Below are positions 7,496 to 47,337 of a DNA stretch of 64,000 nucleotides, piece after piece (the stretch's first letter is position 1; every line of letters begins with the position of its first letter). Under the pieces are notes generated by a model. The model did not search any database and had not been told where the DNA came from. It worked only from the letters and a program-made list of their open reading frames with translations. Made by a program: the position numbers and the translations under genes. The stretch spans positions 1-64,000 of the forward strand of contig JABURP010000031.1 in the NCBI GenBank assembly GCA_014762645.1, written 5' to 3'. This stretch comes from Crocinitomicaceae bacterium. GTDB taxonomy: Bacteria; Bacteroidota; Bacteroidia; Flavobacteriales_D; Crocinitomicaceae.

Positions 7496-8041
7496 TTACA
7501 TCACCAAACCGTTGAGACAAAGCGAGCCGCTAAATGTTTGGGTGTCTGAAGGTGGCTGCCCGTTGACCCATGGGTAGGAATGAGCCGTGCCGCTAAAATT
7601 AGCTCTTATTGGCGTGTAAATTCCCTGACTTGAATCAAATTGACTCTCCACAACGTCAAAAGTAACTTCAGAAACATATAAACCGTTTGTATCCAGGTCT
7701 ATATCAAAGAAATCAAAATCCAGGTCGGTATTGTTGTATGAAGTTGATCCTTCAGTAATAATTCCCGGGACGGCCATTTCAATATAAACTGACTCGGCAT
7801 TTTGATCTTTACCAATGATCACCATAGCGCTTTCTTCATATCCGAACCAGTTATAAACAATGGTAAAATTGGTTTGCGAATCAAGTTGCAGCTCATGATC
7901 TTCACCGGCAACATTTATCTCAAACGAACCGCTGTTGTATGCACAATTAACGGGCTCAGGATCTTTGTCTTTATTTTTCTTGCAGGCCGTGACACCTGAC
8001 AGTAAAATGATCAGAAAAAGTATGTTTTGGGTCAATCGCAT
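7496..8041 (-). CDS. Lipoprotein A of the mosaic cluster
   Basis: A 181-residue lipoprotein. The signal peptide ends in the lipobox LSGVTAC (Cys20) followed by a lysine-rich KKNKDKD tether, so it is expected to be lipidated and probably surface exposed. The mature part is a beta-rich domain of unknown family. The first 22 residues are identical to those of the paralogue at 8858-9490, and the DNA identity extends into the untranslated leader, but the mature domains are unrelated. That points to shuffling of the export signal and promoter between neighbours. It converges with the helicase gene, with three bases between the stops. Confidence 0.75.
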   Translation of the reverse strand: MRLTQNILFLIILLSGVTACKKNKDKDPEPVNCAYNSGSFEINVAGEDHELQLDSQTNFTIVYNWFGYEESAMVIIGKDQNAESVYIEMAVPGIITEGSTSYNNTDLDFDFFDIDLDTNGLYVSEVTFDVVESQFDSSQGIYTPIRANFSGTAHSYPWVNGQPPSDTQTFSGSLCLNGLVM

Positions 8042-37485: not shown

Positions 37486-38163
37486 ATGAAAATTCTTATG
37501 GTAGAGGATGATCGTGAACTGCTGCGTTCTATCCTACTTTATTTTAACGAATTTGGCTATATCTGCGAAACGGCAAAGAGTTTTTCTGATGCCGAAGACA
37601 AAATCAGTGAACACGAATATGACTGCATTATTTTGGACTTAGGATTGCCTGACCGAAACGGTTTGGATCTCTTACCCGTTATCAGCAGAAAAAACAATGA
37701 TACCGGTGTAATTATCCTATCTGCCAATTCAAACCTTGATGACAAAGTCAAAGGACTAGATATGGGTGCAGATGATTATCTCACTAAACCTTTCCACCTC
37801 TCTGAGTTAAATTCCCGCATAAAGTCGATAATCCGAAGAAAAAAACAACAAGGCACAAATATTCTTGAGTATAATGAGATTAGTATTAACACTGATTCTA
37901 AAGAGGTGCGTGTGAATGATCAATTCATCCGACTTACAAAGAGAGAGTACGACCTTCTGCTCTACCTTTATTACAACAGAAACCGGGTAGTTACCAAAAC
38001 ATCTATTTCTGAACATTTATGGGGCGATTTTATGGACGCAGCTGATTCTGCGGACTCTGTATACAGCCACATTAAAAACCTCAAACGAAAGTTGGGCAAA
38101 AACGGTCCGGGTGACTATATTAAATCCTTGTACGGCGTAGGTTACATCTTTAAAGACGATTAA
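37486..38163 (+). CDS. OmpR/PhoB-family response regulator
   Basis: A 225-residue response regulator. The receiver domain has acidic residues Asp8 and Asp9, the phosphoacceptor Asp51 (LDLGLPD) and Lys101 (TKPF). The C-terminal winged helix (about 128-223) has LTKREYDLLLYLYYN and VYSHIKNLKRKLG. PhoB/OmpR regulators bind direct repeats spaced about 11 bases, and four such repeats lie just after this operon's kinase gene (38845-38883). The kinase gene follows with one base between. Confidence 0.93.
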   Translation: MKILMVEDDRELLRSILLYFNEFGYICETAKSFSDAEDKISEHEYDCIILDLGLPDRNGLDLLPVISRKNNDTGVIILSANSNLDDKVKGLDMGADDYLTKPFHLSELNSRIKSIIRRKKQQGTNILEYNEISINTDSKEVRVNDQFIRLTKREYDLLLYLYYNRNRVVTKTSISEHLWGDFMDAADSADSVYSHIKNLKRKLGKNGPGDYIKSLYGVGYIFKDD

Positions 38164-38164
38164 C

Positions 38165-38812
38165 ATGAGTGATATTGAAAACAAGCGTGCTACAGAGTAC
38201 GCACAGAACCTATCGCATGAATTACTGACGCCACTTGCTGTTATTCGGTCAAAGGCTGAATTGTTATTGCAGTCAAAGGATCTCTCAAAAGAGGACATGA
38301 AAAACATAGACGTGATCCTCAAAACTGTAGAGCGTATGTCCAGGCTAAATAAAGCACTGATTCTTTTGTCTAAAATAGATAGTGAGGTTTACCAGGATAT
38401 CGAAGAATTGGATGTCAATGAGATCGTTTCAGATTCGCTTGAAAAATTTGAAGATCAAATTCGCTTTCGTTCACTACAAATTCGCTATCAAAAGAAAGAT
38501 CCAAGCGCATTAAAATCCAACCGCAATCTCTTTGAGATTCTGATCACCAATCTTATTAAAAATGCGGTATTTCATAACATTGACAGCGGCAAAATACTGA
38601 TCACTTCAGACAACAAGTCCTTTCAGATTGAGAACACAACCAACCAAACGGCCTCTGAAGATTTATATACCCGTTTTGTCTCACAGGGAAACGATAAAGA
38701 TTCCATTGGATTGGGTTTATCTATTGCTAAAAAAATATGCGATTTTCTGGGGTATAAAATCCATCATGAACTTGCAGATAACAGGTTTGTCATGACCGTA
38801 CACTTCAATTAA
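38165..38812 (+). CDS. Soluble minimal histidine kinase
   Basis: A 215-residue kinase with only the catalytic parts: H-box NLSHELLTPLAV (His18), N-box LITNLIKNAVFHN, and a G-box DSIGLGLSIAKKI. There is no membrane segment or sensory domain; the H-box begins at residue 15. It may sense cytoplasmic signals, rely on another protein, or act mainly as a phosphatase of the adjacent regulator. The ATG follows the regulator stop after one base, so the two are certainly co-transcribed. Confidence 0.88.
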   Translation: MSDIENKRATEYAQNLSHELLTPLAVIRSKAELLLQSKDLSKEDMKNIDVILKTVERMSRLNKALILLSKIDSEVYQDIEELDVNEIVSDSLEKFEDQIRFRSLQIRYQKKDPSALKSNRNLFEILITNLIKNAVFHNIDSGKILITSDNKSFQIENTTNQTASEDLYTRFVSQGNDKDSIGLGLSIAKKICDFLGYKIHHELADNRFVMTVHFN

Positions 38813-38844
38813 CTAACTTTTTGAAATACAGCGTTTTTCTCGTT

Positions 38845-38883
38845 CAGAATTCCTACAGAATCCTTACAGAATTCATACAGAAT
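38845..38883 (+). promoter_or_regulatory. Four 11-bp direct repeats, OmpR/PhoB-type operator
   Basis: CAGAAT occurs at 38845, 38856, 38867 and 38878, exactly 11 bases apart, with TA usually preceding it (consensus TACAGAATnCn). Eleven-base spacing places all sites on one helix face, as in PhoB-type boxes. The array ends eight bases before TAATTTAG (38891-38898), a near match to the -7 element of the next gene, so it covers the -33 region as an activator site would. The OmpR-type regulator encoded immediately upstream is the obvious candidate to bind it. Confidence 0.8.
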
Positions 38884-38926
38884 GCTGCGTTAATTTAGAG
38901 GCGTTAAAAACGAATAATGTAACGCC

Positions 38927-39247
38927 ATGAGAGCCGCATTAAAAATGGACAAAATTCCGTTGACAGACACGAAACCGGTGGTTATCACAAAAGATTTGAT
39001 CCATCATTTACACTTTCCGAAGGAAGAAGTACTGAATTCAAGCTTTGATAAAAATGTAAGAAATAAAGATTTGGAACAGGCTATTGTTTTGGGCAATGTA
39101 TATCACTCAAAAGTGGCCATCCTTTTTGAGGACATTGAAGGACAAAAAAAGGTCGAAACCACTATTTGGGGCGTGACCGATAAAGCTGTTATTCTGAAAG
39201 GGGATATTATGATTCCCATTCACCGAATTATACGCATCATTTACTAA
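38927..39247 (+). CDS. Conserved hypothetical protein under the 11-bp repeat promoter
   Basis: A 106-residue soluble protein, not recognised. The C-terminal half (VEVETTIWGVTDKAVILKGDIMIPIHRIIRIIY-like pattern, about 75-106) is a short beta barrel resembling small RNA- or ligand-binding folds, but that is only a shape impression. It is the first gene after the four operator repeats and is followed after five bases by another small gene, so it heads a probable operon controlled by the two-component system. An alternative ATG is at residue 7. Confidence 0.6.
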   Translation: MRAALKMDKIPLTDTKPVVITKDLIHHLHFPKEEVLNSSFDKNVRNKDLEQAIVLGNVYHSKVAILFEDIEGQKKVETTIWGVTDKAVILKGDIMIPIHRIIRIIY

Positions 39248-39252
39248 ACATC

Positions 39253-39570
39253 ATGAAAGCACAAAAAAACATCCATATTTACGAAAGTGCTGACATCCAC
39301 ATTCAAAAGAAAGTTGCCTTAAAATATATGGATGATCCTCAGGGTGCAATAATGCGCATTCCTAACGAGGACGAAACTATACTCAGAGACGCTATTGAAA
39401 TATGGCACAACGGTGAATATCACTTGGTCATTGTCAATGAAGATAACCTGAGAAAAATACACTGGGATGCTTATCTGCAAAGTTCAGATGACGGCATCTT
39501 CTTATCCTATTTTGATGATGAAAATCCTGAAAACTTCACAGATGACGGGTTTGATTTTCACTATCTATAA
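39253..39570 (+). CDS. Small acidic hypothetical protein
   Basis: A 105-residue acidic protein of unknown family (C-terminal DDGIFLSYFDDENPENFTDDGFDFHYL pattern, split here for length: DDENPENF and DDGFDFHYL). No signal peptide or membrane segment. It lies five bases after the previous gene and 23 before the next, in the group downstream of the operator array. Coding status rests on the full-length open frame, good spacing and absence of competing frames. Confidence 0.6.
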   Translation: MKAQKNIHIYESADIHIQKKVALKYMDDPQGAIMRIPNEDETILRDAIEIWHNGEYHLVIVNEDNLRKIHWDAYLQSSDDGIFLSYFDDENPENFTDDGFDFHYL

Positions 39571-39593
39571 CTTTTACTAAATAAAAACGAAAA

Positions 39594-39902
39594 ATGAAAA
39601 AAGTCAGTTTAATTGCATTCATCTTCTTACTGTGTTCTTTCTCACTACAGGCACAGGAAAAGAAAAAAATCACCGCCATGTTTGAAGGTTATGACGGTGT
39701 TTCTTACAGTTTCTCTTACGGTGATGAGGAGTACATATTTTTTGATGAGTGCGCAGATAATGTGCTAAAAGAATTTGACCTGAGCTCAGATGAATTTATG
39801 TATGAAGATTTTGTTGTGACCTACGTGGTGAGCAAAAATGAAGATGAAGATGAAACATATAAAATTGTTGATCTGCTTCATGTTAAAACAGATGAAGAAT
39901 AA
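39594..39902 (+). CDS. Small secreted acidic protein
   Basis: A 102-residue protein with a clear signal peptide (MKKVSLIAFIFLL...SLQAQ, cut after residue 21) and a short acidic mature domain (EEYIFFDECADNVLKEFDL; SKNEDEDETYKIVDLL). One cysteine only. No family recognised. It belongs to the run of small genes between the two-component system and the SET gene, so it may be part of an envelope response. Confidence 0.62.
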   Translation: MKKVSLIAFIFLLCSFSLQAQEKKKITAMFEGYDGVSYSFSYGDEEYIFFDECADNVLKEFDLSSDEFMYEDFVVTYVVSKNEDEDETYKIVDLLHVKTDEE

Positions 39903-39923
39903 AGTTGTTGAAAACTATAGAAA

Positions 39924-40514
39924 ATGATACATCCGGATACCAAACTGGAGTTTATTAGTGAAACAAAAGGATACGGCGTGGTAGCTACACGTCGTATTCC
40001 TAAAGGCACTATTACCTGGGTTCAAGATAATCTTGACACTGTCATTAGCGAAGAAAAAGTACGCCAACTCGGAAGTTCCTATTTTGATATTATAGATACC
40101 TATACGTTTAGGGACAGTGCTGGCAACCACGTTCTATGCTGGGATCACGGGAAATATGTCAACCACAGTTTTAATGCAAATTGCCTTACAACTGCTTATA
40201 ATTTTGAGATTGCCATAAGAGATATTGAAGTAGGTGAAGAACTGACAGATGATTATGGATATCTCAATATCACCAGTCCTTTCCACGCCGAAGATGAAGC
40301 GGTGGATAGAAAGGTAGTTTACCCAGATGATCTAAAAACTTATTACCCGATATGGGATGAAAAGCTTGAAAATGCATTTCAATGGGTGAACAAAGTGCCG
40401 CAAGCACTGCAGCACATGTTGAACAAGGATCAAAATGAAGAAATAGAGGCCGTTTTAAATGGACATAAAAAACTGGAATCTATTCTGAACTGTTATTATG
40501 AATCGGACAAATAG
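39924..40514 (+). CDS. SET-domain protein lysine methyltransferase-like
   Basis: A 196-residue protein with a SET domain in its first 115 residues: the start GYGVVATRRIPKGT, the knot-forming motif VNHSFNANC (about 74-82), and the GEELTDDYGYLN motif (about 100-111). SET enzymes transfer a methyl group from S-adenosylmethionine to protein lysines. The bacterial target is unknown. The post-SET cysteine cluster is absent. The gene overlaps the start of a small membrane protein by 17 bases. Confidence 0.85.
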   Translation: MIHPDTKLEFISETKGYGVVATRRIPKGTITWVQDNLDTVISEEKVRQLGSSYFDIIDTYTFRDSAGNHVLCWDHGKYVNHSFNANCLTTAYNFEIAIRDIEVGEELTDDYGYLNITSPFHAEDEAVDRKVVYPDDLKTYYPIWDEKLENAFQWVNKVPQALQHMLNKDQNEEIEAVLNGHKKLESILNCYYESDK

Positions 40515-40620
40515 ACAGCAACCCATTAAGAAAAAGCCGGATATTATGTTTTACCGGTTTTGTATTGCAGTCATACTGGGATTGGCAATGTTTATTATCC
40601 TTTTACTTCACAGCCTATGA
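40498..40620 (+). CDS. 40-residue single-pass membrane protein
   Basis: A short open frame starting at the ATG at 40498 encodes 40 residues: a basic N-terminus (NRTNRQQPIKKKPD) followed by one hydrophobic helix (about 18-38, CIAVILGLAMFIILLLHSL). It overlaps the SET gene by 17 bases in another frame, and its TGA overlaps the ATG of the next gene as ATGA, the usual sign of translational coupling. The positive-inside layout predicts an N-in membrane protein. It is too short for common ORF cut-offs. Function unknown. Confidence 0.6.
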   Translation: MNRTNRQQPIKKKPDIMFYRFCIAVILGLAMFIILLLHSL

Positions 40621-41237
40621 AAAACCTAAATAATATCATACTCATTGGACCCATGGCCACTGGTAAGAGTTCAATAGGTAAAGAGGTATCCGTATTAACC
40701 GGGTGGAAGAATTATCCTGTGGACAAGTTGAAGTGGTACTACCGCTATAAAAATGGATTTGACGGGGTCAAGAGTTCTACTATTTTACAGTCAAAAGGGT
40801 TTGATGCACTTGTGTCATATTCCCAAAAATATTTTGGGATACAAGAATTGAGGGATCTCATTAACAATTTCAGTGGAATTATTGAATTAGGTGCCTCTGA
40901 CACACACCGAAACGACCTTAATTATATCCGGGACATCAACAAACTCCTGGAACCTTACCCAAACATTTTTCTAATTCTTCCTTATGAAGATGAAGACCTA
41001 TCCATTGAAATATTGACAAAGAGGTTACGATCACGTTATCACCTGGACCCGTTAAAAAGTGGTGTGTTAATGTCGTACATAAACAAGAACCTGGAATTTA
41101 TTCGTTCACCGCAAAACCTACTTTTGGCCAAGCATATAATTTATACGAATGACCGTCCGTTTCACCAGATTGCTCAGGAGATTGTTTACCGCTCAGAATT
41201 AAAGTCCAAAGACACGGACTACAAGAATGTTATTTGA
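40617..41237 (+). CDS. Shikimate-kinase-like P-loop kinase
   Basis: A 206-residue P-loop protein with Walker A GPMATGKS (11-18) at the N-terminus and a fold order like shikimate or adenylate-type kinases (IGKEVSVLTGWKNYPVDKLKW; GIIELGASDTH; LILPYEDEDLSIEIL). The frame extends to 40560, but the ATG at 40617 overlaps the small membrane gene stop (ATGA) and leads straight into the P-loop, so it is chosen. The substrate is not evident. It is convergent with the universal stress gene, one base apart. Confidence 0.75.
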   Translation: MKNLNNIILIGPMATGKSSIGKEVSVLTGWKNYPVDKLKWYYRYKNGFDGVKSSTILQSKGFDALVSYSQKYFGIQELRDLINNFSGIIELGASDTHRNDLNYIRDINKLLEPYPNIFLILPYEDEDLSIEILTKRLRSRYHLDPLKSGVLMSYINKNLEFIRSPQNLLLAKHIIYTNDRPFHQIAQEIVYRSELKSKDTDYKNVI

Positions 41238-42903: not shown

Positions 42904-43383
42904 ATGAAAATAGATGAGACTGACCTTCGAATCCTTGATTTTCTCCAGAAAAACGCCAATCTAACCGCTAAGGAACTTTCAGCAAAACTTTCGCTATCCA
43001 GCACGCCTATTTATGAGCGAATTAAAAAGCTTGAGAAATCCGGAGTAATTAGAAAATATGTTGCTTTACTTGACCCAGAGAAGCTCAACAAACAACTTAT
43101 GGTATTCATTAATATTACCATAAAAGAACATCATCATACGAAACGTGAGCAATTTTTAAAATCACTTTTGTCGTTAGAAGAGGTTTCAGAACTTTATCAC
43201 ACCTCCGGAACGCATGATTTTATGGCCAAAGTAAGGTTTGAGAATATAAAAGATTATCGGGACTTTCTTGTGAACAAGATCGCCCCGATAGAAAATATTG
43301 CTGATATCGACTCTCAAATAGTTTTGGATGAAATTAAGTACACTACTGAGGTCAAGTTATCGAATTACATGCCCAATAAATAG
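42904..43383 (+). CDS. Lrp/AsnC-family transcriptional regulator
   Basis: A 159-residue regulator with the AsnC-type helix-turn-helix (DLRILDFLQKNANLTAKELS, then STPIYERIKKLEKSGVIRKY) and a C-terminal RAM ligand-binding domain (VFINITIKEHH; YHTSGTHDFMAKVRF). Lrp proteins usually sense amino acids. It faces the four-gene polyamine operon tail to tail (19-base overlap), and AGTGA half-sites occur in both its own promoter and that operon's promoter, suggesting it controls arginine and polyamine use. Confidence 0.92.
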   Translation: MKIDETDLRILDFLQKNANLTAKELSAKLSLSSTPIYERIKKLEKSGVIRKYVALLDPEKLNKQLMVFINITIKEHHHTKREQFLKSLLSLEEVSELYHTSGTHDFMAKVRFENIKDYRDFLVNKIAPIENIADIDSQIVLDEIKYTTEVKLSNYMPNK

Positions 43384-44336
43384 GCAAAGATTAATGGAGC
43401 AACTATGGTCGCATCAGATTCAATAATGAACTTAGGCGTATCAATATCTAATTTTCCCCAGGTGATTTTTTCGTTAGGAACTGCTCCCGAATACGAGCCG
43501 TAACTTGTTGTCGAATCCGATATTTGACAGAAATACGACCAAAATGGTATTTCTTCCATCTCCATATCCTGATATAACATAGGCACAACACAAATAGGAA
43601 AATCTCCTGCTATCCCCCCACCTATTTGGAAAAACCCAATTCCATTAGCGGAATTATTCACGTAGTAATCTGCCAGGTACGTCATATATTCAATTCCGGA
43701 TTTCATGGTAGAAGCTTTGAGTTCACCTTTCATCACATAGGAGGCAAAAATATTGCCCATAGTACTGTCTTCCCAGCCCGGAACAACAATTGGTAAGTTT
43801 TTTTCTGCTGCGGCGTACATCCAGCTATCCTTAATATCTATTTCGTAATACTGTTCCAAGACACCACTCAATAACATTTTATACATAAACTCATGCGGAA
43901 AATAACGCTCCCCTTTGTCTTCTGCATCTTTCCAAATTTCATAAACATGTGATTGCAACCTTCTGAAAGCCTCTTCTTCCGGGATGCATGTATCTGTCAC
44001 ACGATTCAATCCTTTTTCCAGCAGGTCCCATTCTTCTTTCGGAGTTAAATCTCTGTAGTTCGGAATGCGCTTATAGCTTTTGTGCGCAACAAGGTTCATG
44101 ATATCCTCCTCCAGGTTTGCTCCAGTACAGGAAATAATGTGCACCTTGTCCTGTCTAATCATTTCCGCAAATATTTTCCCTAACTCGGCAGTACTCATAG
44201 CACCTGCCAATGTTACCATCATTTTGGCTCCGTTTTGTAACTGTGTTTCATAAGCCTTTGCTGCATCCACAACTGTAGCTGCATTAAAATGCAAATAGTA
44301 CTTTTCTATAAAAGATGAAACTGCTCCTTTATTCAT
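43365..44336 (-). CDS. Deoxyhypusine-synthase-like protein, probable homospermidine/spermidine synthase
   Basis: A 323-residue member of the deoxyhypusine synthase family, which transfers an aminobutyl group from spermidine or between polyamines using NAD. It has the NAD-binding LAGAMSTAELG, the IISCTGANLEED segment, and the active-site lysine in ITWGKLD (Lys295), with SDATIVAPLIFA at the end. Bacteria lack eIF5A, and bacterial homologues are thought to make homospermidine-type polyamines. Position at the end of an arginine decarboxylase-agmatinase operon supports that role. Overlaps DUF155 by four bases. Confidence 0.88.
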   Translation of the reverse strand: MNKGAVSSFIEKYYLHFNAATVVDAAKAYETQLQNGAKMMVTLAGAMSTAELGKIFAEMIRQDKVHIISCTGANLEEDIMNLVAHKSYKRIPNYRDLTPKEEWDLLEKGLNRVTDTCIPEEEAFRRLQSHVYEIWKDAEDKGERYFPHEFMYKMLLSGVLEQYYEIDIKDSWMYAAAEKNLPIVVPGWEDSTMGNIFASYVMKGELKASTMKSGIEYMTYLADYYVNNSANGIGFFQIGGGIAGDFPICVVPMLYQDMEMEEIPFWSYFCQISDSTTSYGSYSGAVPNEKITWGKLDIDTPKFIIESDATIVAPLIFAYLLGM

Positions 44337-45118
44337 ATTTTTTCAATTATAATTTGTATTACCTCAAGTAGGATCAGCAAAATAATGATCCACTCCAGTA
44401 AACTGCTGTGTTTATGTTGCTGGATACTCAGAAAAGTATCCAGGTTTTCTTTTACGGTTGTTAAATTAAGCTGTATTCCTTCGTGTCTCCTTGAAAACTC
44501 AAGATCTGCGTGCATTTGTGTATCAAGCTCTGTCAATTCTTTATCGTCCCAAATAACATCCGGCGAATCAAAAATATAGAGGTTTTCGGCCATCCGGTTT
44601 TTAAGTACCAGGGTTTGACCTATCAAACGTTTCACCTTCAATGGTGACGCAGATAGTTTTCCTTTTGCCTTTAGGTAGTTGGAGAGTTGCCGTGTAGTTT
44701 CCAGTAAAGATTCCACGCGCGACTGAAAATCATCAAGAGCTACTGTTTGCGCCATATTCAACGCGATTACATGCGCTACGTCAATTGATATATTGGAAAC
44801 GTAAACTTTACCAAAATCTGCTCTTGGCAAAACACCTTCCTGCACGATAATACTGAAGTCGTCACTGGGAAGACTATTTATTTCACTTGAATCATTAATA
44901 AAATGTAACAAAAGATCCTGGCGAAGGCTTTCTTCTACATTTATAAAAACAATACTTCCATAGTTCTTTAAATAGATCCACGAATGCTCAGCCACTTCAA
45001 ACAAAGCAAATTCCTGATCGGTTTTTGAAACGATATAATCCAGATCCTTCTTTGCTTCGTGAATGGAAATGTTCTCTCCCAGATGGTACGCTATAGAATT
45101 TAACTCAAGCATTTTCAA
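44333..45118 (-). CDS. DUF155 (RMD1/RMND1-like) protein with C-terminal membrane anchor
   Basis: A 261-residue protein of the DUF155/RMD1 family, known from mitochondrial and yeast relatives but without a defined reaction. The N-terminal two thirds is soluble, then a helical region (RQLSNYLKAKGKL; NLTTVKENLDTFLSIQQHKHS) leads to one C-terminal membrane helix (LEWIIILLILLEVIQIIIEKI split: LEWIIILLILLEVIQII). It lies inside the polyamine operon, overlapping agmatinase by 14 bases and the deoxyhypusine-synthase-like gene by four, which ties it to that pathway by position only. Confidence 0.82.
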   Translation of the reverse strand: MKMLELNSIAYHLGENISIHEAKKDLDYIVSKTDQEFALFEVAEHSWIYLKNYGSIVFINVEESLRQDLLLHFINDSSEINSLPSDDFSIIVQEGVLPRADFGKVYVSNISIDVAHVIALNMAQTVALDDFQSRVESLLETTRQLSNYLKAKGKLSASPLKVKRLIGQTLVLKNRMAENLYIFDSPDVIWDDKELTELDTQMHADLEFSRRHEGIQLNLTTVKENLDTFLSIQQHKHSSLLEWIIILLILLEVIQIIIEKI

Positions 45119-45956
45119 ATTTGTAAGACAACAACTTATAATAAAGTTTTGCCGCCAGAAAATCAGATGATTTGTCTACTGCATTAGGGCATAACTCTAC
45201 AATATCAAACCCCACTACTTTTTTCTCTCTAAATACCCTTCTCAAATAGTTTATCACCTGATAATAGGTAAGTCCTCCGGGTTCTGGCGTACCGGTTGAA
45301 GGACACTCAGATGGATCAAATACATCCAGGTCTATCGTAATATACACCTTATCTGTCATTTGATCTATTGACCGTTCCATCCAATCTGAGTGATTGTGAA
45401 TCTTATGGGCAAAGTATGTCTTATTCAGATTCATGTGTTCCAGTTCAGATTCGTCCATTGAACGAATTCCAACCTGAATCAGATTTGTCTTTTTGCTCGC
45501 CTCATGAACCGCACAGGCATGGTTACATTTAGACTCTTCATATTCTGGCCGTAAATCGGCATGAGCGTCTAATTGTAATACTGTGAGGTCATTGTAGGTT
45601 TCATAATGCGCACGTATGGCGCCAATAGAAACAGAATGTTCACCGCCGAACATGGTAACAAATTTCTTCGCTGCAATTTGTTCTTTCACCTTTTGGTAAA
45701 CGGCTTCTGTCATTGCTTCCGGTGATTCATTTTCTTTCACAGGGTCCTGCAGACTCACGCCCACCTTATAAGAAAGTTGATTTGTCTCTATATCATAGAG
45801 CTCCATATTTTCAGAAGCATCTAGAAATGCATCAGGGCCTTTATCAGCTCCTTTCTGCCAGGTACTTGTTCCGTCATAAGGAACCGGGATCAATACAACA
45901 CTCGCATTGTTATAATCCGCATATTTATCGGGGATACCCGCGTAATTACGTTTCAT
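45105..45956 (-). CDS. speB: Agmatinase
   Basis: Agmatinase hydrolyses agmatine to putrescine and urea with a two-manganese site. The 283-residue ureohydrolase has metal-binding motifs FGGEHSVS, QLDAHADLRPEY, the His of CNHACAVHEA, and IDLDVFDPSECPSTGTPEPGG. It follows the decarboxylase gene with one base between, providing the second step of the arginine to putrescine route. An arginase or other ureohydrolase is a less likely alternative given the neighbour. Confidence 0.92.
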   Translation of the reverse strand: MKRNYAGIPDKYADYNNASVVLIPVPYDGTSTWQKGADKGPDAFLDASENMELYDIETNQLSYKVGVSLQDPVKENESPEAMTEAVYQKVKEQIAAKKFVTMFGGEHSVSIGAIRAHYETYNDLTVLQLDAHADLRPEYEESKCNHACAVHEASKKTNLIQVGIRSMDESELEHMNLNKTYFAHKIHNHSDWMERSIDQMTDKVYITIDLDVFDPSECPSTGTPEPGGLTYYQVINYLRRVFREKKVVGFDIVELCPNAVDKSSDFLAAKLYYKLLSYKFENA

Positions 45957-45957
45957 T

Positions 45958-47337
45958 TTAATATCCTAATAGTGATAACATTTGTTCTGGTAGTTGTTCC
46001 TGAGAAAACACAGTAACGTTGTGATCCTCATCAATAATCAGGTGTTTTGGTTGTGGAATAAGACAATGGTGAATACCACCATATCCGCCTATACTATCCT
46101 GATAAGCACCTGTGTTGAAAAAACCAATATACAATGGCTTTTCTGCATCATACTCAGGTAAATAGATTGCATTTACATGCTGCTCGGAATTGTAATAGTC
46201 GTCACTATCACATGTTAATCCACCCAAAAGCACACGTTCATATTTGTCGTTCCAACGGTTGATCGGTAACATGACAAAACGCTTATTGATTGCCCATGAA
46301 TCAGGTAATGTTGTGATAAACGAAGAATCGATCATGTTCCATTTTTCACGGTCATTCTGTTTTTTTTGTGACAATACCTGGTAAATAACCCCTCCTGATT
46401 CTCCCACAGTGAATGAGCCAAATTCAGTAAAGATGTTAGGGACATCCACATCACTCTCATCACAAGCCATTTTTATCTGGTTGATGATTTCATCCACCAT
46501 ATATTCGTAATCAAATTCAAAAGCCAGGGAGTTTTTAATTGGGAACCCCCCACCAATATCCAGATGCTCCAGTGTACGACATACTTTTTTAAGTTCACAG
46601 TAAACCTTCAAACATTTCGTTAATTCGTTCCAGTAATAAGCTGAATCGGTGATTCCGGTATTGATAAAAAAGTGAAGCATTTTCAGCTCACAGTTCGGAT
46701 TATCTTTTATTTGCTCCTTGTAAAATTTTACGATTGACTTATATCCAATTCCTAATCTACTGGTGTAGAAAGGAAACTTAGGGTCCTCTTCTGAAGCAAT
46801 ACGAATACCTACTTTTATTTTCTTCTTGGTTTTAGCCTGAATTTTAGATAACTCTGAAACACTGTCAATAATAACGATAACATTCTCAAATCCCTGATCG
46901 AGCAGAGAAACGATATTATTGATGTATCTGTCATCCTTATACCCGTTACAAAGGACATAATGTTTTTTATCCATCTTGCCTTTTTCAAAGAGCTTTTGTA
47001 TGATACTGATGTCATAGGAAGAAGAAGTCTCCAGATGAACATTGTTTTTTAACGCTTCCTCAATTACGTAAGCAAAATGTGATGATTTTGTGCAGTAGCA
47101 GTAATGATAATCACCTTTGTAATTATGATGCTGAATGGCCTTATCAAACCAGGTTTTTGCCCGTTCAATATTTGAACCAATTTGCGGTAAATAAGTAAAC
47201 TTGAACGGCGTTCCGTATTCTTTGATCAACTGCATCAAGTCGAGATCATGAAAGAGCAGATGATCGTCCTTCAATTTGAATTCTTCCTGAGGAAATTCAA
47301 ATGTTTGGTATACCAAATCTTTGTAACGTGTTTGCAT
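45958..47337 (-). CDS. speA: Arginine decarboxylase (PLP fold III)
   Basis: A 459-residue fold-III PLP decarboxylase of the short Bacteroidota arginine decarboxylase type. It has the PLP lysine in YCYCTKSSHFAYV (about residue 85), the HFFINTG and LDIGGGFP motifs, a FTEFGSFTVGESGG phosphate-binding segment and the active-site cysteine in LGGLTCDSDDYY. It makes agmatine from arginine. Its agmatinase partner follows immediately. The promoter region upstream holds several AGTGA half-sites. Confidence 0.88.
   Translation of the reverse strand: MQTRYKDLVYQTFEFPQEEFKLKDDHLLFHDLDLMQLIKEYGTPFKFTYLPQIGSNIERAKTWFDKAIQHHNYKGDYHYCYCTKSSHFAYVIEEALKNNVHLETSSSYDISIIQKLFEKGKMDKKHYVLCNGYKDDRYINNIVSLLDQGFENVIVIIDSVSELSKIQAKTKKKIKVGIRIASEEDPKFPFYTSRLGIGYKSIVKFYKEQIKDNPNCELKMLHFFINTGITDSAYYWNELTKCLKVYCELKKVCRTLEHLDIGGGFPIKNSLAFEFDYEYMVDEIINQIKMACDESDVDVPNIFTEFGSFTVGESGGVIYQVLSQKKQNDREKWNMIDSSFITTLPDSWAINKRFVMLPINRWNDKYERVLLGGLTCDSDDYYNSEQHVNAIYLPEYDAEKPLYIGFFNTGAYQDSIGGYGGIHHCLIPQPKHLIIDEDHNVTVFSQEQLPEQMLSLLGY

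Follow-up and report, generated by a model that had tools for sequence, protein, structure and literature searches.

A run of four evenly phased repeats lies between a two-component gene pair and a series of small genes in a 64,000-nucleotide stretch of a Crocinitomicaceae genome (the window, meaning here the whole stretch analysed), and raises the question of which protein reads these repeats and to what effect. The original prediction took them for a doubled OmpR/PhoB box, bound by two dimers side by side, through which the regulator encoded at 37486 activates the uncharacterised genes at 38927-41237. The features from which the answer can be built are the following.

37486..38163, + strand: OmpR/PhoB-type response regulator (RR), receiver and winged helix (Pfam Response_reg 4.4e-27, Trans_reg_C 6.7e-18)
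38165..38812, + strand: histidine kinase, 215 residues, made up of HisKA and HATPase alone (Pfam)
38843..38850, + strand: half-site unit 1, TTCAGAAT (12.6 bits, outgroup-trained matrix)
38854..38861, + strand: half-site unit 2, TACAGAAT (10.5 bits, outgroup-trained matrix)
38865..38872, + strand: half-site unit 3, TACAGAAT (10.5 bits), spanning -33 of the predicted start
38876..38883, + strand: half-site unit 4, TACAGAAT (10.5 bits), the unit closest to the -7 element
38891..38898, + strand: -7 element TAATTTAG (consensus TAnnTTTG; predicted transcription start about 38903)

The CAGAAT hexamers start at 38845, 38856, 38867 and 38878 with a period of exactly 11 bases, as originally described, and the near-consensus -7 element reported beside them stands up equally well: TAATTTAG matches five of the six fixed positions of TAnnTTTG, which places it within the Bacteroidota sigmaA -7 type, and it lies 7 nt from unit 4 (38884-38890). 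In the excerpted text of PMC9723704 the Bacteroidota consensus TAnnTTTG sits at -12 to -5, so that a transcription start is predicted at about 38903, the array would extend from about -60 to -20 and -33 would fall within unit 3. The six nearest relatives carry TAnnTTYG at the same spacing from their arrays. The next in-register positions beside the window array score -27.7 and -13.5 with the outgroup-trained matrix, and among the nine four-unit arrays described below that of the window has the highest total and is also the most even.

Chance as the origin of the array is excluded. Across all hexamer words and periods of 7-15, the window holds one exact quadruple, whereas in 100 simulated 64-kb sequences (first-order Markov) 22 triples arose and no quadruple. 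The looser pattern CAGAAT-N5-CAGAAT with at most one mismatch has four matches in the window, of which three belong to the array; shuffled sequences have a mean of 0.67, and 3 of 100 shuffles reach four. The half-site matrix was trained solely on the 21 dyads that precede RR genes of the outgroup (21 of 43 rows at the chosen cut-off and position), and with it the window array has a four-unit score of 44.0, compared with 5.0 for the best place of the window in a non-overlapping register.

The protein encoded at 37486-38163 has a receiver followed by Trans_reg_C, both Pfam domains being above their cut-offs, and thus belongs to the OmpR/PhoB family; it gives full-length matches to PmrA-type and other chains of this family. 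Its best NCBIfam match is PmrA (2.6e-54), and its scores stay under the curated NCBIfam cut-offs for PmrA (184.1 of 330 bits), PhoB (NF053854, 142.2 of 270) and RprY (110.1 of 370). The nearest named matches come from Crocinitomix and Crocinitomicaceae genomes (Bacteroidota); the genome of the window itself is a draft of 4.23 Mb in 128 contigs. The neighbouring kinase has no hydrophobic or transmembrane segment at the cut-off used. It scores 226.5 bits against a PorY-family cut-off of 350 (NF052314) and covers profile positions 213-418 of 418 only, the N-terminal half of the profile being absent. A box through which the window RR could regulate its own gene was sought and not found: the best dyad within 120 bases upstream of its gene reaches 6.7 against a cut-off of 11.5 (simple scale), and inspection of this upstream sequence reveals no box.

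For the comparison with relatives, 21 (L013-L033) of 80 loci with RR relatives from named genomes were used, and a search of 399 genomes of the order contributed 39 of its 51 places outside the own genome, the other 12 being outgroup places 44-47% identical; L013, L015, L016 and L017 are copies of L158, L160, L159 and L161, respectively, and were dropped before the tree and all counts. In the maximum-likelihood tree of 57 RRs the window RR falls within a clade of 14 (support 100/99). Every one of these 14 loci has an in-register 11-base array beyond the kinase gene, with four units in nine and six in five, which is consistent with two and three dimers. Absence of the repeat from the same locus in relatives had been named beforehand as grounds for abandoning that prediction; all 13 other clade members have the array. 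An automatic rule found 12 of the 14 arrays. The remaining two are those of L156, which ends inside the kinase gene so that the array was taken from L157, another contig of the same genome, and of L014, where an opposite-strand gene lies between the kinase gene and the array. Among four same-genus genomes, G000 and G299 have both an array and a close RR, and G100 and G167 have neither at the thresholds used (triple-unit array).

The arrays of the clade are sharply bounded, with scores dropping on either side, and a shift of the register by 1-10 bases lowers their mean scores to between -10.6 and -25.3. There are 38 units past the first pair; set against local background, 37 of these lie above the 95th percentile and 25 above the 99th. 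Marginal units are the fourth of L170 (-1.6) and the third of L162 (-2.8). As the units closest to the -7 element are weak in several relatives (0.1 in L159 and the -1.6 of L170), contact by a proximal dimer is less sure there. By eye, the gap between array and -7-like element is 7 nt in seven loci and 8 nt in the other seven. The 7-nt gap, to a TAnnTTYG-like element, characterizes the subclade of the window (seven loci); the 8-nt gap is found in L167, L170 and the five six-unit loci, where the -7 element is without its first T. The next gene on the same strand after a clade array belongs to family A or C.

Outside the clade, 21 of the 43 outgroup rows show a dyad ahead of the RR gene at the cut-off used (L182, where nothing legible precedes this gene, is counted among the 43), compared with none of the 14 clade loci at the same cut-off. 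Behind the kinase gene a dyad is present in 13 of the 39 outgroup rows that could be read there. Eight of the nine scanned proteins encoded after this second dyad are PepSY_like, one of them just under the cut-off, and the ninth is TonB-receptor-like. Three outgroup rows score three units. The stretch YSH-x-KNL-K/R-K/R-K, which we take to be the recognition helix of the RR, is kept in 13 of 14 clade RRs (YAH in L170), and related forms occur in most outgroup rows. Since outgroup RRs combine a similar recognition-helix region with dyads before their own genes, the half-site can be tied to this RR family; together with the retention of the array throughout the clade, this argues that the regulator of 37486 is the ligand of the boxes, as had been proposed.

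Two observations on the outgroup stand apart. In L168, L169, L172, L173, L175, L176, L180, L183, L189, L191, L192 and L019, that is 12 of the 21 dyads, the first CAGA-type half-site lies exactly 36 bases before the RR start codon. This placement, with a -7 element at -12 to -5, predicts leaderless regulator mRNAs; leaderless mRNAs make up only 5.5% in F. psychrophilum according to the same excerpt (PMC9723704). In L018, a Cyclobacteriaceae locus outside the clade, a TonB-receptor-like gene is preceded, at positions 7951-8006, by some four units with a TAnnCTTG-like element, and multi-unit arrays may therefore have more than one origin.

The kinases also differ in length. Those of the window, L157, L159, L160 and L161 have 215-221 residues and no hydrophobic segments, those of L158, L014 and L163-L165 have 316-332 residues and those of L167 and L170 have 418-422 (L162 and L166 are excluded from this classification of N-termini), and most outgroup kinases have about 410-440. 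From these lengths across clade and outgroup it appears, by parsimony, that the array grew before the sensor was lost; grouping of L167 with L170 is weakly supported here (87/30).

Taken as a whole, the comparison strongly suggests that the neighbouring RR binds the array and turns the genes on. We consider it very probable that the array is the operator of an activator-dependent promoter, to which the window RR would bind as two dimers and thereby switch on 38927-41237. The sensorless kinase (38165-38812) presumably phosphorylates the RR (37486-38163), and because it has no sensor region the signal would be cytoplasmic or arrive through a partner protein. The phosphorylated RR would occupy the four direct-repeat half-sites, 11 bases apart, as two head-to-tail dimers, adjacent to each other on the same face of the helix. 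Of these, the proximal one would cover the -33 region, a position that fits direct contact with polymerase, and would abut RNA polymerase at TAATTTAG and recruit it, so that the presumed single-transcript operon would be switched on from about 38903. Adjacent dimers are expected to bind cooperatively and to give a steeper response than one dimer, by analogy with the effect of repeat number on PhoP and with the multi-repeat sites of ArcA. Some observations count against this explanation: a kinase without a sensor could be inactive or act only as a phosphatase, a related promoter elsewhere in the genome (C124:35086) has three units, and multi-unit arrays occur outside the clade (L018 and the three outgroup rows).

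The same geometry can be read with the opposite sign, the RR-bound array acting as a repressor or roadblock that keeps the operon off when the RR is phosphorylated, and with unit 4 ending 7 bases from the -7 element a bound dimer could indeed block polymerase. However, the array itself takes in the -33 region, and a spacing of 7-8 nt before the -7-like element, kept in 14 of 14 loci, is what an activator in contact with polymerase would be expected to show, while the missing first T of the -7 element in L167, L170 and the five six-unit loci is what dependence on an activator would lead one to expect; we consider repression improbable. It is still less probable that a different transcription factor of the genome binds the boxes. 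Five further OmpR-type RRs (E <= 1e-15) are encoded there, but all are at most 35% identical to the window RR, the same half-site precedes RR genes in the outgroup and the array tracks the RR clade from genome to genome.

Neutral tandem duplication by slippage would leave an array with no function, and the identity of units 2-4 of the window over 8 bases is what such an event could produce. The 3-base linkers between the units are unlike, though (TCC, CCT and TCA), and both place and register are kept in relatives whose RRs have diverged to 53-73% identity, with shifted registers scoring far lower. On the unlike linkers and the conserved register slippage was ruled out, and we give it practically no credence. 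Activation by the neighbouring RR remains the preferred reading, and the genes that would be its targets are listed below.

38927..39247, + strand: gene A, first of the presumed operon, a small conserved protein predicted to form an Sm-like barrel
39253..39570, + strand: gene B, small protein (E 0.077 against family D of the relatives)
39594..39902, + strand: gene C, small protein whose N-terminus resembles a signal peptide by eye
39924..40514, + strand: SET-domain protein (Pfam SET 1.1e-13)
40617..41237, + strand: P-loop protein, weakly shikimate-kinase-like (NCBIfam 2.7e-4, under cut-off), last of the presumed operon

Of these genes, at first described as uncharacterised, one encodes the SET-domain protein. 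In relatives, homologues of the downstream genes, including the P-loop gene, are again found behind the array, individual genes having been gained or lost; gene B would be related at best marginally to family D, the second gene in relatives. Two details of annotation may be added. Translation of gene A may really begin at a second in-frame ATG, at 38945, which follows AAAA. An open reading frame of 40 residues at 40498-40620, in which a single hydrophobic segment is visible by eye, shares bases with the last part of the SET gene and, through ATGA, with the start of the P-loop gene.

Gene A is widely conserved: of 299 genomes from the order, 150 have a member of its family, and the own genome has three copies. 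The AlphaFold model (pLDDT 89) has an N-terminal helix and five strands. All 50 among the Foldseek matches listed for this model are Hfq entries, with a best E of only 0.015, and the VIA Z values of 6.4-7.0 for Hfq rows lie below those of two designed barrels and in a range (Z < 8) that is common. Hfq and LSM families are absent from the Pfam matches of 26 members of the gene A family. No protein of the own genome reaches the Pfam cut-off for Hfq, and the excerpted text of PMC11697453 contains no statement on Hfq absence. The modelled resemblance to the Sm/Hfq barrel is thus a lead and not a claim, and can reflect a common type of small barrel. A few genes further on, the window encodes (43365-47337) what we assume to be arginine-decarboxylase-like, agmatinase-like and deoxyhypusine-synthase-like proteins; homologues of these three types closely follow the A genes in L162, L164, L165, L166 and L167.

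The genome search that had been suggested for the repeat turned up the full pattern at two further places. Two units with a -7 element are present three times in the own genome, and the reversed control not once. One instance is that of the window, another stands with two units before the gene for a 2OG-Fe(II) oxygenase (C124:33557), and the third, with three units, before a pair of small genes (C124:35086). The odd unit number at C124:35086 limits the rule of four or six units to the 14 clade arrays. The small-gene pair belongs to families D and E (5.2e-15 and 1.9e-20 with HMMs built without the own proteins), of which D directly follows gene A in eight clade relatives and E lies in or beside the operon in three. 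The box beside these families at a separate place is good evidence, at the level of sequence, for one regulon, to which at least two further promoters, on C124, probably belong. On that contig (L009 3433-4089 and 4927-5620) the oxygenase gene and the D-E pair flank a cold-shock-domain gene. Before the two other gene A copies, on C96 and C22, boxes were sought and not found, the best dyads scoring 8.7 and 7.1 on the matrix scale as against 20.9-23.1 in the window array.

Looser searches were less selective. With at most two mismatches, YCAGAWTTNNTWCAGAWT is found at 114 places of the own genome as against 24 for the reversed pattern, an imperfect control in which word frequencies differ; part of this surplus may consist of genuine sites, and the regulon may be larger. 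Nine loci with one mismatch (L199-L207) include six inside open reading frames of at least 259 codons on either strand, and only C124:35099 among the nine has a -7 element at the expected distance. The strict dyad gives 25 matches in 14 genomes as against 5 for its reverse, 14 of the 25 being in arrays or at C124. None of the other 11 has the full pattern; at least seven are inside same-strand open reading frames, two of these being presumably SecA-like genes. Two units with a -7 element give four matches in the 14 genomes, three of them in the own genome, as against two reversed. So few matches in relatives are explained by facing units or -7 elements that are weaker there, and the relatives' arrays were located through gene context.

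These results can be joined into a wider evolutionary reading, which we regard as rather unlikely in its entirety and put forward as speculation. It would be a ladder from two half-sites, as in most of the outgroup, to four near the base of the clade and six in one subclade. The dyad of the RR's own gene and the adjacent PepSY_like gene are not seen in the clade, and the kinase sensor would later have shrunk or been lost. An all-or-none response, once owed to positive autoregulation, might then have come to depend on cooperativity at the target promoter, with a cytoplasmic signal and a set of small target proteins headed by a hitherto unrecognised Sm-like, possibly RNA-binding, protein in a genome without Hfq over the Pfam cut-off.

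Whatever becomes of that reading, the binding code predicted here (T-T/A-C-A-G-A-A/T-T every 11 bases, placed 7-8 nt before the -7 element) is sharply defined and has phylogenetic support, and it assigns a site and likely target genes to a clade of Bacteroidota RRs. In the open-licence papers searched, and among the matches listed, no published description of the half-site code, the clade or the operon was found. In nature, relatives have two, four or six units, a series in which dimer number could be linked to the steepness of a two-component response, and both the sensorless kinase and gene A, with its wide conservation, lend themselves to direct tests.

PmrA/BasR and PhoB boxes are likewise placed over the -35/-33 region, usually with one dyad per promoter. 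PmrA, the best NCBIfam match of the RR (under cut-off), has solved near-full-length entries; the promoters of PmrA/BasR and PhoB differ from the present one in being of the sigma70 and not of the Bacteroidota -7 type. A further likeness is to the outgroup Bacteroidota RR-kinase pairs, which share the half-site, a similar recognition-helix region and the spacing to the -7 element, and differ in having mostly two units, a long kinase and a PepSY_like target gene. Among better known regulators, PhoP of M. tuberculosis is of the OmpR/PhoB family and binds as a head-to-tail dimer to 7-bp direct repeats with a 4-bp spacer, the same 11-base period, and three and four repeats in a row were bound tighter than two (excerpt of PMC4832192); half-site sequence, phylum and promoter type are different, and the two are likened by geometry only. 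E. coli ArcA, also of this family, recognizes direct repeats mainly at 11-base centre spacing, with 92 sites of three to five repeats as against 66 of two, and some OmpR and PhoB promoters carry several repeats, as far as an excerpt of PMC3798270 goes. In ArcA, however, site position and repeat number vary within one genome, whereas the orthologous promoters of the window's clade hold four or six units at 7-8 nt from the -7 element. Doubled or multiplied sites of the OmpR/PhoB type are thus already known, and it is the growth to six units and the sensorless kinase that are the interesting parts of this system.
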